DNA of 53,209 bases from Prevotella sp. Its GTDB lineage: Bacteria > Bacteroidota > Bacteroidia > Bacteroidales > Bacteroidaceae. The notes under the pieces were generated by a model. The model worked only from the letters and a program-made list of their open reading frames with translations, was not told the origin of the DNA and ran no database searches. Both the position numbers and the translations under genes were made by a program. The first letter of the stretch is position 1, and each line of letters opens with the position of its first letter. Below are positions 493 to 43,240 of the stretch, in pieces. The DNA lies in assembly GCA_017475265.1 (NCBI GenBank), contig JAFVFY010000009.1, positions 1 through 53,209 on the forward strand, read 5' to 3'.

Positions 493-1750
493 CGGCAAGG
501 ACAACGAGGAGCTTCAGGGCCTTACCGGTAATCTTGTGGTCTACGGCGATGCAGATGCAGTCGGCTACGGAGGGATGGCTCATGGCGGCATCCTCGACCT
601 CGGTGGGAGCGACCTTGAAGCCCCCAACATTGATCACATCGTCCTGACGGCCTTGCAAGTGCAGACGGCCCTCGGAGTCGATGGTGCCCAGGTCGCTGGT
701 GTAGAGGACGCCGTCACGCAGCACCTGTGCCGTGCGCTCTGGCTCGCCCACATAGCCAGTCATTAGCGTGTCGCCAGTACAGGCGATGAGACCAGCTTCG
801 GTGATGTGTACGTTGGAATGGGGCATCGGACGACCGAGACAACCAGGGGCACATTTACGATTTACAGATTTTCGATTTTCGATTTCATTTACAGATTTTC
901 GATTTTCGATTTGGAAGTTATGGGTGCAGATGATGCCGGTCTCGGTGCTGGCGTAGGTGTTGTAGAGGCGGGTGTTGGGGAGCAGACGGCAGAGGGCCTC
1001 CATGTCGGCCTGGGCCATAGCGGCGGCACCGGTCTCGATGAAGTCCAGACGGTCGGCAAGGGCAGCCAGACGGTCGGAGGCCAGTTGAAGGAGGATGCGG
1101 ACGCTGGCAGGGACGAGGAAGGTGGCGTAAGAAGATTTACGATTTACGAATTTACGATTTACAATTTCTGCGTTTCCAAAAGCGGCGAAGAAGGCATTGA
1201 GGTCTTTCAGGCCGTCGACGATGATGAGGGTGGCGCCGAGGAGCATCACGGGGTAGACCTTTGAGAGGGAGCCGATGTGGTTGAGGGGGCCGTTGACGAC
1301 GAAGTTCAGGTTCTCGGTGAAGCCTTGCCCGGCAATGAGGTTCTCGGCATCGGCAAGGATAGCCTTGTGACTCACCATGACGCCCTTAGAGCGGCCTGTG
1401 GTGCCTGTGGTGTAGAGCACGTCAGCGGTGCCAGCGGGACAACGGTGGGCGGTCAGCTCGGCGGAGACTCGCTGGAAGGCTTCCTCGGGCATGTCGCGCT
1501 CCAAAGGGGCGGCAACGAGGCCAAGACGGTGGAGGGCGAAATAGGTGACGAGGAAGTCGATGGTAGAAGAAGCACGGAGGGGGACGATGTTTGAGTTGAG
1601 AGTTGAGAGTTGAGAGTTGAGAGTTGAGATTTGAGAATTTATGCGGGCCTGGAGGTCGGCGTAGGTGCAGCGGTCTTGGCCGCAGACGATGGCCAGCTTG
1701 TCAGGGCGATGGACGGCGTGGTGGGCGATGTAGGCTTCAAGGGAGCACAT
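461..1750 (-). CDS. Acyl-AMP ligase (ANL family), C-terminally truncated
   Basis: This is an adenylate-forming acyl/aryl ligase. The P-loop-like motif YTTGTTGRSKG and the downstream YASTETG and YTSDLG signatures identify the family. In pigment clusters such enzymes activate an aromatic or fatty acid and load it onto the acyl carrier protein, whose gene lies just upstream at 1808-2035. I start at 1750 (MCSLEAY...) because the nine residues before it, back to 1777, are encoded by a 7-bp repeat. Repeat-derived peptides interrupt the protein at about 1590-1640 (LNSQLST type), 1131-1168 (VNRK type) and 851-913 (ENRKSVN type). The ORF ends at a TAA in a fourth repeat, before the catalytic C-terminal lysine motif encoded at 329-460. 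As annotated it should be inactive or impaired unless the stop is read through. Confidence 0.85.
   Translation of the reverse strand: MCSLEAYIAHHAVHRPDKLAIVCGQDRCTYADLQARINSQISTLNSQLSTLNSNIVPLRASSTIDFLVTYFALHRLGLVAAPLERDMPEEAFQRVSAELTAHRCPAGTADVLYTTGTTGRSKGVMVSHKAILADAENLIAGQGFTENLNFVVNGPLNHIGSLSKVYPVMLLGATLIIVDGLKDLNAFFAAFGNAEIVNRKFVNRKSSYATFLVPASVRILLQLASDRLAALADRLDFIETGAAAMAQADMEALCRLLPNTRLYNTYASTETGIICTHNFQIENRKSVNEIENRKSVNRKCAPGCLGRPMPHSNVHITEAGLIACTGDTLMTGYVGEPERTAQVLRDGVLYTSDLGTIDSEGRLHLQGRQDDVINVGGFKVAPTEVEDAAMSHPSVADCICIAVDHKITGKALKLLVVLADNSQFSILIS
851..913. repeat. In-frame 7-bp array inside the ligase gene
   Basis: Units of the TTTTCGA type, in two blocks with variants. On the coding strand they give the peptide pattern ENRKSVN repeated. 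The array lies between the YASTETG motif region and the CLGRP segment, normally a short loop in this family. The frame is preserved. Confidence 0.8.
1131..1168. repeat. In-frame 7-bp array inside the ligase gene (TTTACGA type)
   Basis: Tandem GATTTAC units on the plus strand; the coding strand reads IVNRKFVNRKSS, inserted before the ATFLVPAS segment. The frame is preserved. Confidence 0.75.
1590..1640. repeat. In-frame 7-bp array inside the ligase gene (GTTGAGA type)
   Basis: Six or seven GTTGAGA units on the plus strand. The coding-strand unit TCTCAAC contains no stop in any phase and gives the heptapeptide NSQLSTL. The array is inserted near residue 35 after the ADLQARI helix. Related arrays are in the LacZ-type gene (30181-30223) and ABC exporter gene (33773-33856). 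Confidence 0.85.
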
Positions 1751-1797
1751 AAACAATAACCAATAAACAATAACCAATAACCAATAAACAATTTATT
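1751..1797. repeat. Intergenic 7-bp array (CAATAAC type) between ACP and ligase
   Basis: About six units of CAATAAC/CAATAAA fill the ACP-ligase spacer. A start codon at 1777 would be inside this array, which argues for the ATG at 1750 instead. Confidence 0.8.
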
Positions 1798-42429: not shown

Positions 42430-43240
42430 CTTCATCGCCGTCATCGACGGTTCCACCTCGAAGAGCACCCGCCGCTGCCACCGCGAGGGCTGGAGGGGAT
42501 TTGCAATCAAGGGTCGTCGCCACAGCAACGGCGAGCTGGCCATGCTCACCATCTCCGCCGTCATCCGCAAGATGAAGGGCAACGTTTCCTGCCACCAGTT
42601 CTGCTCGTTGGCCACCGCCGCCATACGCTCCCGCTACATCAAAGACCTGCTCCCCCATCTCGCCGACCATCCCGAAGACCGTCTCGCCGCCTCGTGCATC
42701 ATCTTCAGCCGTCTGCGCCGTGAGATATGGATGATAGGCGACTGTCAGGGAATAGTAGACCACGCTTCCCAGCGTGGCAATCCCCCCAATAAGGAAGACA
42801 CCACGCTAGGAAGCGTGGCCTACTACCTAGAGAACCCGAAGCCCTCCGAGCAGGAACTTGCCGAGAGACGTGCCGCCATCATCACGTCCAGCCCGAAGCC
42901 CTGGGATCACTTCCTCACCGACGACACCGCCCGCAAGGCCATCATCCCCCGTATGCTGGAAACCATGAAGCAGCAGAACAACGGCTACAGCGTCATCGAC
43001 GGCTTCCCCGTGGACATGGCACATGTGAAGACCTTCACCCTCGATTTCCACCCCTGGGAAATAGTCCTCGCAAGCGACGGCTTCCCCTTCCTCTGTCCCA
43101 CGCTTGCCGAGAGCGAGGAACGCCTCGCCTGGCAACGCGACAACGACCCCCTGAACATCGGAGAGTTCAAAGCCACCAAAGCCTTCACACCCGGCAACAA
43201 CTCCTTTGACGACCGCGCCTACATCCGATTCAGTATATAA
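42353..43240 (+). CDS. PP2C-like protein (putative phosphatase)
   Basis: About 295 residues from MTIQEQALIPK at 42353. The longer reading from 42254 adds a repeat-encoded MGLMGLMG leader and is rejected. FIAVIDGSTSKS and IVLASDGFPFL resemble the metal-binding DG motifs of PPM/PP2C folds, but other motifs are weak, so the assignment is tentative. It overlaps the ygiQ end by 77 bp because ygiQ runs through the repeat. A pair of REP-like palindromes (42754-42830) lies in frame, giving IVDHASQRGNPP...TTLGSVAYY. Convergent with rubrerythrin. Confidence 0.6.
   Translation: MTIQEQALIPKNPQRRSEDGIVVTPDFIAVIDGSTSKSTRRCHREGWRGFAIKGRRHSNGELAMLTISAVIRKMKGNVSCHQFCSLATAAIRSRYIKDLLPHLADHPEDRLAASCIIFSRLRREIWMIGDCQGIVDHASQRGNPPNKEDTTLGSVAYYLENPKPSEQELAERRAAIITSSPKPWDHFLTDDTARKAIIPRMLETMKQQNNGYSVIDGFPVDMAHVKTFTLDFHPWEIVLASDGFPFLCPTLAESEERLAWQRDNDPLNIGEFKATKAFTPGNNSFDDRAYIRFSI
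42754..42830. repeat. REP-like pair in inverted orientation, in frame in the PP2C-like gene
   Basis: TAGTAGA then CCACGCTTCCCAGCGTGG (42760-42777), 23-bp loop, CCACGCTAGGAAGCGTGG (42801-42818) then CCTACTAC: two GTAG-headed palindromes pointing outward, the BIME arrangement. Confidence 0.88.

Follow-up and report, generated by a model that had tools for sequence, protein, structure and literature searches.

How do enzyme genes such as purL, mutS2 and ygiQ come to carry, in frame, blocks of short tandem repeats, many of them laid out as an arm, a loop and a reversed arm? The question is raised by a contig of 53,209 nucleotides (C131; JAFVFY010000009.1) from the genome of a rumen Prevotella sp. 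(G000; 4.75 Mb), which was analyzed at its whole length and is called the window here. We conclude that these in-frame blocks are probably inserted hairpins with tandem arms, which, like miniature inverted-repeat transposable elements (MITEs), lack an open reading frame (ORF) and are relatives of larger elements encoding a protein of the family PF05635. Similarly built hairpins surround PF05635 genes in G000 and in other phyla, suggesting one widespread kind of selfish element.

The original prediction, made from the letters of the window alone, held that arrays of 7-11-bp tandem units, many of them arm-loop-reverse arm, lie in coding regions, and that the same units also make intergenic arrays. 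Both claims were borne out by Tandem Repeats Finder (TRF) and inverted-repeat scans, which yielded units of 7, 9 and 10-11 bp, several built as arm, loop and reverse arm. At TRF score 50, 254 tandem arrays were detected in a 746-kb sample of G000 (34 per 100 kb), as against 1 in a single first-order Markov shuffle and 2.5-13.3 per 100 kb in six same-genus samples of 60-80 kb each. According to our own simple gene finder, 106 of the 254 lie inside genes, 32 at gene edges and 116 between genes. The shortest period was 7 in 85 arrays (46 in genes, 16 at edges and 23 intergenic). By contrast, 33 arrays of period 22 were nearly all intergenic (32, with 1 at an edge) and therefore form a separate class; period-22 arrays also occupy 1-63 and 28090-28236 of the window. 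Counting each arm-loop-arm as one, the roughly thirty in-gene blocks proposed for the window shrink to 18, whereas counting each arm gives about 26, near the proposed figure. These blocks lie in nine genes, including those for an MMPL exporter and an M16 peptidase. At least ten carrier genes had been expected, among them the DUF5703 gene (19179-21464) and the first GH2 gene (24993-27614), in both of which we found no tandem array at TRF score 30 and no notable inverted repeat. The ORF proposed to be PP2C-like (42254-43240) has no Pfam match, and the overlap of its first 176 bases with the ygiQ frame casts doubt on its start.

Of the proteins encoded by these nine genes, four (PurL, MutS2, YgiQ and the ABC exporter) were aligned with same-genus homologs (17 for PurL, the named relatives being Prevotella, mostly ruminant metagenome genomes; 29 for each of the others, from 60 genomes searched). 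Other matches to PurL, YgiQ and MutS2 in the genome are short or distant, so the window genes look like the only full copies. An insert was defined as at least 8 residues, and was called repeat-bearing when its tandem or inverted score exceeded the 95th percentile of control segments. Seven of the 11 inserts in the window proteins coincide with repeats: PurL residues 86-104 and 1175-1195, MutS2 339-376, ABC exporter 386-410 and 505-527, and YgiQ 266-308 and 659-685. Over all four alignments, 21/64 inserts were repeat-bearing compared with 21/276 control segments, and 14/53 were so in the relatives alone, with the window protein excluded. Repeats therefore explain most inserts of the window proteins and a minority of those in relatives. 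Insert and repeat boundaries mostly coincide, and BLAST matches of most relatives break exactly at these positions. Three blocks fared differently: the ABC block at 33673-33702 aligns without gaps and is thus not an insert, and the PurL blocks at 14799-14833 and 15690-15723 gave no insert call of at least 8 residues.

Most relatives lack the inserts, and a few hold a different repeat at the same codon. The insert at PurL residues 86-104 (tandem score 9.5 and inverted score 13.5, with control limits of 7.5 and 7.0) is absent from 12 homologs, bar unrelated residues in L015; similarly, that at 1175-1195 is absent from 12, with short other residues in L002 and L015. The short native form of the MutS2 site is present in 18 of 29 homologs; in 11 there are other extra residues, and 3 of these exceed the control limit for tandem repeats. 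The YgiQ 11-mer site has about three residues in 25 of 29 homologs and short other stretches in two; in genomes G075 and G008 it is occupied by long inserts built of different repeats. Where the ABC exporter gene has its hairpin at window position 33771, the sister genome G075 carries a different 7-mer hairpin. Likewise, the gap between the moxR and DUF58 genes is occupied by a PF05635 element in G000 and by a different short hairpin with 10-mer-like units in G088, the neighbor proteins being 94 and 99 percent identical. At four loci (YgiQ, ABC, MutS2 and the MoxR-DUF58 gap), then, the repeats at one site differ between species, a pattern that fits hot spots and equally in-place replacement of arms. 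Together with the occurrence of the units and of whole hairpins at many genomic places, these comparisons support the proposal that the repeats are inserted, spreading sequences rather than ancestral protein features. The window features concerned, along with others of their kind, are the following.

853..912, minus strand: 7-mer array (AAATCGA/AAATCGT type) in the acyl-AMP ligase gene (TRF).
1134..1167, minus strand: 7-mer array (AAATCGT) in the acyl-AMP ligase gene (TRF).
1593..1636, minus strand: 7-mer array (CAACTCT) in the acyl-AMP ligase gene (TRF).
5969..6027, minus strand: 9-mer array (AACCCCATC) in the acyltransferase gene (TRF); the 9-mer families are without tie to PF05635.
14110..14185, plus strand: PurL insert (residues 86-104) of short arm, loop and 7-mer array (AAATCGT/AAATAGT).
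14799..14833, plus strand: PurL 9-mer array (CACAGAGGN), a short insert below the 8-residue call.
15690..15723, plus strand: PurL 7-mer array (CAAATCT) in a variable stretch, more replacement than lengthening.
17361..17446, plus strand: PurL 7-mer hairpin (ATTGACC arm, loop, GGTCAAT arm), insert at residues 1175-1195.
22794..22925, plus strand: MutS2 11-mer hairpin (GGGGAGTGAAA arm, core GACGATAC, loop, GTAACGTC, reverse arm; alignments A1 and A2).
30181..30224, minus strand: 7-mer array (CAACTCT) in the second GH2 gene (TRF).
30326..30460, minus strand: 7-mer hairpin (ATTGACC arms) in the second GH2 gene (TRF, inverted-repeat scan).
33441..33516, plus strand: C-rich palindrome insert in the ABC exporter gene (residues 386-410; 91 percent inverted repeat), of another family without PF05635 tie.
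33771..33858, plus strand: 7-mer hairpin in the ABC exporter gene, core GACGTTA...GTAAAGTC (inverted-repeat scan, homolog alignment).
41083..41219, plus strand: YgiQ 11-mer hairpin with four units per arm (homolog alignment, 11-mer family alignment).
42253..42336, plus strand: 9-mer hairpin (AATGGGTTT / AAACCCACC) in a variable region near the YgiQ C-terminus.
43254..43394, no strand assigned: intergenic 9-mer hairpin (ACGAATTAC; inverted-repeat scan, arm pairing).

A candidate source for these elements, absent from the original prediction, is provided by PF05635. One 11-mer element of G000 (C20:51758-52292) has a 450-bp loop containing a 133-residue ORF of PF05635/TIGR02436, the 23S rRNA intervening-sequence protein, a four-helix bundle; its nearest PDB chain is 2gsc, Xcc0516 of Xanthomonas campestris (E 3e-15), and phage records gave no match to it. 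The arms and inner core of this element (GACGTTAC...GTATCGTC) are like those of the short 11-mer elements, which have the core GGGACGNTAC ... GTAACGTCCC and a variable loop. G000 has seven PF05635 matches, six of them over the cut-off and all six also matching TIGR02436. Each of the six genes is flanked by inverted tandem arms (inverted-repeat scores 42-94), and the seventh match is not. For five of the six arm pairs, words of the arms are found again elsewhere in sampled G000, with a frequency 6- to 33-fold above that in samples from 15 other Prevotella genomes. The arms of the MutS2 and YgiQ 11-mer hairpins match those of locus L343, and the 7-mer families CAAATCT, CAATTGT, TAACCAA and AAATCGA match arms of L344-L347. 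The arms of the 9-mer and C-rich window blocks match no PF05635 element. The 21- and 45-bp blocks are likewise without a PF05635 tie; tandem repeats of these lengths, different from the other families, lie in the MMPL exporter gene at 2316-2358 and 3507-3596. Because the window hairpins carry no PF05635 ORF, their loops being too short, we call them relatives rather than ORF-bearing members. As a separate observation, G000 has three reverse transcriptase genes (four matches, two of which are pieces of one frame), and the PF05635 gene of L342, with 11-mer arms (C123:7026-7343), lies 3.8 kb from a 391-residue reverse transcriptase frame (L379, C123:11166-11789). In one open-access library, which leaves aside subscription articles and preprints, we came upon no paper that links PF05635 as a family with arms made of tandem repeats.

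PF05635 loci of other genomes, which are mostly drafts, were chosen as best protein matches regardless of their flanks, and the threshold was set at an inverted tandem arm score of at least 30. This was reached at 30/37 loci in Prevotella (G000 included) versus 5/158 control genes and 1/70 shifted positions, at 15/30 loci in other Bacteroidota versus 0/60 position-shifted controls, and at 15/20 plasmid loci versus 0/38; an earlier test, now superseded, had given 14/28 loci at 40 or more versus 1/115. The plasmid set consisted of 20 of 25 matches, 19 of them cyanobacterial and one from Azospirillum. Three cyanobacterial plasmid genes (L413, L419 and L424) sit inside CRISPR-Cas operons, between cas10 and cmr3 or cas6 and cas4, and have 7- or 8-mer arms (weakly so L413, inverted-repeat score 29); other plasmid loci adjoin tra genes. 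The number of units per arm is about 4.6 for 7- and 8-bp units alike (58 and 43 arms), arm length growing with the unit. In addition, the PF05635 ORF is co-oriented with both neighbors at 15/15 determinable Prevotella loci and 25/27 loci of other Bacteroidota (23 undetermined), compared with 36/55 control genes, all from Prevotella (Fisher p 0.007 for Prevotella, 0.0004 pooled), and at 15/19 annotated plasmid loci.

PF05635 is present in 153/198 sampled Bacteroidota genomes, and its number follows the load of heptamer repeats. The pattern (CAANNNT)x4 has 678 matches in G000 and at least one in 89/120 other or related genomes. Among the matches listed, words are shared within a genome (CAACATT in G061, CAATGTT/CAATCTT in G115), and samples of nine further genomes partly agree with such genome-specific words. 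In some genomes the reversed-pattern control gave high counts too, through matches to other heptamer families. The trinucleotide YAA is present in 79/85 G000 heptamers, compared with 55 (sd 3.7) expected from shuffled units; as a universal anchor it was dropped, units such as CACCTCT occurring in other species. Over 119 Prevotella genomes, PF05635 number (matches below the cut-off included) and heptamer load gave a Spearman coefficient of 0.41, or 0.37 with genome size removed, and of 0.57 in 58 genomes at least 90 percent complete. The median number of heptamer hits was 0, 2, 26.5, 36 and 71 in genomes with 0, 1, 2-3, 4-6 and at least 7 PF05635 genes (16, 23, 34, 29 and 17 genomes, respectively).

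It appears unlikely that an ordinary transposase mobilizes the hairpins as MITE-like elements, with PF05635 only riding along in the loop. Dispersed ORF-less elements with inverted repeats are typical of MITEs, and the number of Y1 transposases correlates with heptamer load, if weakly (Spearman 0.27, p 0.04, 59 genomes). However, 7/59 genomes have at least 50 heptamer hits and no match to Y1_Tnp, the only transposase family searched, and Y1 was rejected as the mover on account of this absence and of the weak correlation. Moreover, between arms 180-1600 bp apart in sampled G000, PF05635 was the sole ORF found in short elements, other such arm pairs enclosing ordinary genes or nothing, and the association with PF05635 spans several phyla.

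Still less probable is local replication slippage, by which arrays would grow in place from chance seeds and template switching would make the reverse arm, without any mobility. In its favor, in-gene heptamer arrays range from about four to 17 copies with 21-bp higher-order steps, and the number of arrays in G000 is far above that in relatives. The 11-mer family argues otherwise. By eye, 8/10 of its 5-prime arms and 10/10 of its 3-prime arms have exactly four units, and a covariance model built from 11 elements found whole hairpins with the conserved core at no fewer than 28 distinct places in G000 (among 54 scored candidates), as well as matches in 22/60 other Prevotella genomes. Similarity between the two arms of an element (0.841) does not exceed that between arms taken from different elements (0.848), and units are common to many unlinked loci.

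Several further properties of the hairpins were recorded. Thirty of 330 arrays pair as hairpins. Of the 28 that could be classified by eye, 27 have the TTG or G-rich strand as their 5-prime arm and one AT-rich case is opposite; two 22-mer hairpins give no strand reference. Words enriched next to the loop, in a set of 115 arrays, came from the opposite arm or from neighboring 9-mer repeats. A first reading in which the loop is conserved across elements was abandoned, as alignment showed conservation of the arm-adjacent core only. Co-evolution of arms, one copying the other, was not seen in the 11-mer family, and the p values for 7-mers (0.08) and 9-mers (0.003) are biased, the pairs having been picked by similarity. 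Weaker RNA folding of in-gene copies was likewise discarded: four in-gene and seven other copies fold alike. Rfam models matched the window five times, at RNase P RNA and four tRNA genes (8511-8945), and at none of the hairpins. At 46510-46915, 3' of the phenylalanyl-tRNA synthetase gene, a 143-bp unit built of inverted AATTCGTG-like units is repeated 2.8 times.

In-gene repeats sit in loops between conserved motifs and keep the frame. The 64 in-gene arrays of period 7, 14 or 21 have 0 stop triplets in the coding frame, as the ORF definition demands, and 39 and 70 in the others. Sense ATTGACC arrays (e.g. C105:11157 and C20:64308) have ATTCACC at every third unit, by which an in-frame TGA is avoided (by eye), and 7/30 intergenic arrays have an open frame in the stop-rich direction. 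Position and frame might fit repeats selected as protein features of the host enzymes, such as flexible linkers or phase-variable tracts, but this is highly improbable, given that the repeats are equally common between genes, that relatives have none or unrelated ones at the same site, and that the addition of seven-base units preserves the frame only in multiples of three.

We therefore prefer inserted hairpins related to PF05635 elements, although several observations weigh against this. PF05635 loops were not seen in any 9-mer or C-rich element, and the arms of L342 and of the PF05635 loci in G008, G016 and G075 do not recur in samples of their own genomes. No enriched word was found on the outer side of the 115 arrays, and no target duplication turned up, no dedicated test for it having been made. 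Arm covariation within 11-mer elements was absent (p 0.70), so the pairing itself is not visibly maintained. Scores below 30 were obtained at 7/37 Prevotella, 15/30 Bacteroidota and 5/20 plasmid loci, and swapped flanks reached 36 in 139/1332 pairs, because arm families are common to several loci. Finally, 4/16 Prevotella genomes without PF05635 have at least 10 heptamer hits (126 in G018), and the genome counts are uncorrected for kinship.

In the mechanism that we propose, a hairpin consists of a few (typically four to five) copies of a 7-11-bp unit, a loop and the reverse-complement units, and the loop of a larger element, its likely parent, encodes the PF05635/TIGR02436 four-helix-bundle protein. 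The comparisons show the insertion, the dispersal of whole elements, the framing of PF05635 genes by arms of this kind, and the arm units and core sequence in common. Within genes, a hairpin would persist only where a codon loop has room for additional residues and the frame is free of stops, and it would then be translated. We infer that PF05635 moves the hairpins: the protein may bind the repeat units, perhaps with one ring subunit per unit, and may promote copying, possibly via a host transcript. A ring that counts repeat units is attractive because of the roughly 4.6 units per arm, the co-orientation and the title of a 2006 paper by Lin, which reportedly names a five-bundle assembly. TRAP-like ring proteins offer a comparison.

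More tentatively, tandem-armed hairpins and PF05635 might make up a cross-phylum class of transposase-free mobile elements, in which a ring-forming protein reads arms of constant unit number and spreads them via host transcripts; the heptamers of cyanobacteria, Xanthomonas and Beggiatoaceae, the 23S rRNA intervening sequences and the Prevotella inserts would be members or derivatives. Hints at such a class come from the constant unit number across unit lengths and from the co-orientation of the ORF. Bacterial genomes have been known since 1990 to contain heptamer repeats, for which no source is known. Should PF05635 elements prove to be their origin, a widespread protein family would gain a role, the 23S rRNA intervening sequences would gain relatives outside rRNA, and in-frame insertion of elements would become testable as a route to loop gain in single-copy enzymes such as PurL.

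Comparison with known systems places the Prevotella hairpins among several kinds of repeat. MITEs are marked by target-site duplications and by ends in common with an autonomous transposon; in the Prevotella case, arms are common to the short hairpins and a PF05635 element. Unlike palindromes of the REP/RAYT (repetitive extragenic palindrome/REP-associated tyrosine transposase) type, heptamers also abound in the seven genomes lacking a Y1_Tnp match. Borg tandem repeats are young and lie in ORFs with the frame kept (PMC9879509); they differ from the Prevotella hairpins in having perfect units with lengths divisible by three and no inverted arms, and in belonging to archaeal extrachromosomal elements.

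The original prediction cited no earlier description of inverted-arm tandem arrays spread in frame in Bacteroidota genes; as stated, its view of novelty is not supported beside the following two accounts. The heptamers GGGAATC and GGGGA(C/T)T of Xanthomonas and Nostoc have fixed and variable unit positions, frequently form convergent pairs in inverted orientation (70 and 75 cases in Xanthomonas), are 89 and 93 percent intergenic and have been proposed to act through G-quadruplexes; section 10 of that article states no PF05635 link (PMC4692102). The Prevotella arrays share the tandem heptamers and the inverted pairs, and the nearest PDB chain to the C20 protein is from Xanthomonas, but many of them lie inside genes. 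TAACTGA heptamers of Beggiatoaceae, cyanobacteria and some Bacteroidetes are described as strain-specific, largely intergenic with some in ORFs, showing seven-base indels and forming direct repeats with one indirect case; a regulatory role was proposed (PMC4679880). Like these, the Prevotella heptamer arrays are partly inside ORFs, whereas their arms are inverted.

The likeness to Rickettsia palindromic elements, drawn in the original prediction, is apt as an analogy. These are palindromes of about 100-150 bp found in frame in unrelated protein genes (PMC10969869), and in four Prevotella proteins we likewise found in-frame palindromic inserts that relatives lack. By description, the Prevotella elements differ in having arms of tandem short units with species-specific words and in having a related ORF-bearing element. 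PF05635 itself resembles the Avd protein of diversity-generating retroelements (PMC10053308). The Coxiella 23S rRNA intervening sequence has an inverted-repeat stem and tandem heptamers right before the S23p ORF (PMC4990558). Unlike intervening sequences of this type, which lie in the 23S rRNA gene and are removed by RNase III, the Prevotella elements lie in or between protein genes, are mostly ORF-less, have arms that are tandem throughout, stay in frame and seem to escape removal; what they share with them is an inverted-repeat stem and a loop able to encode a PF05635 protein.

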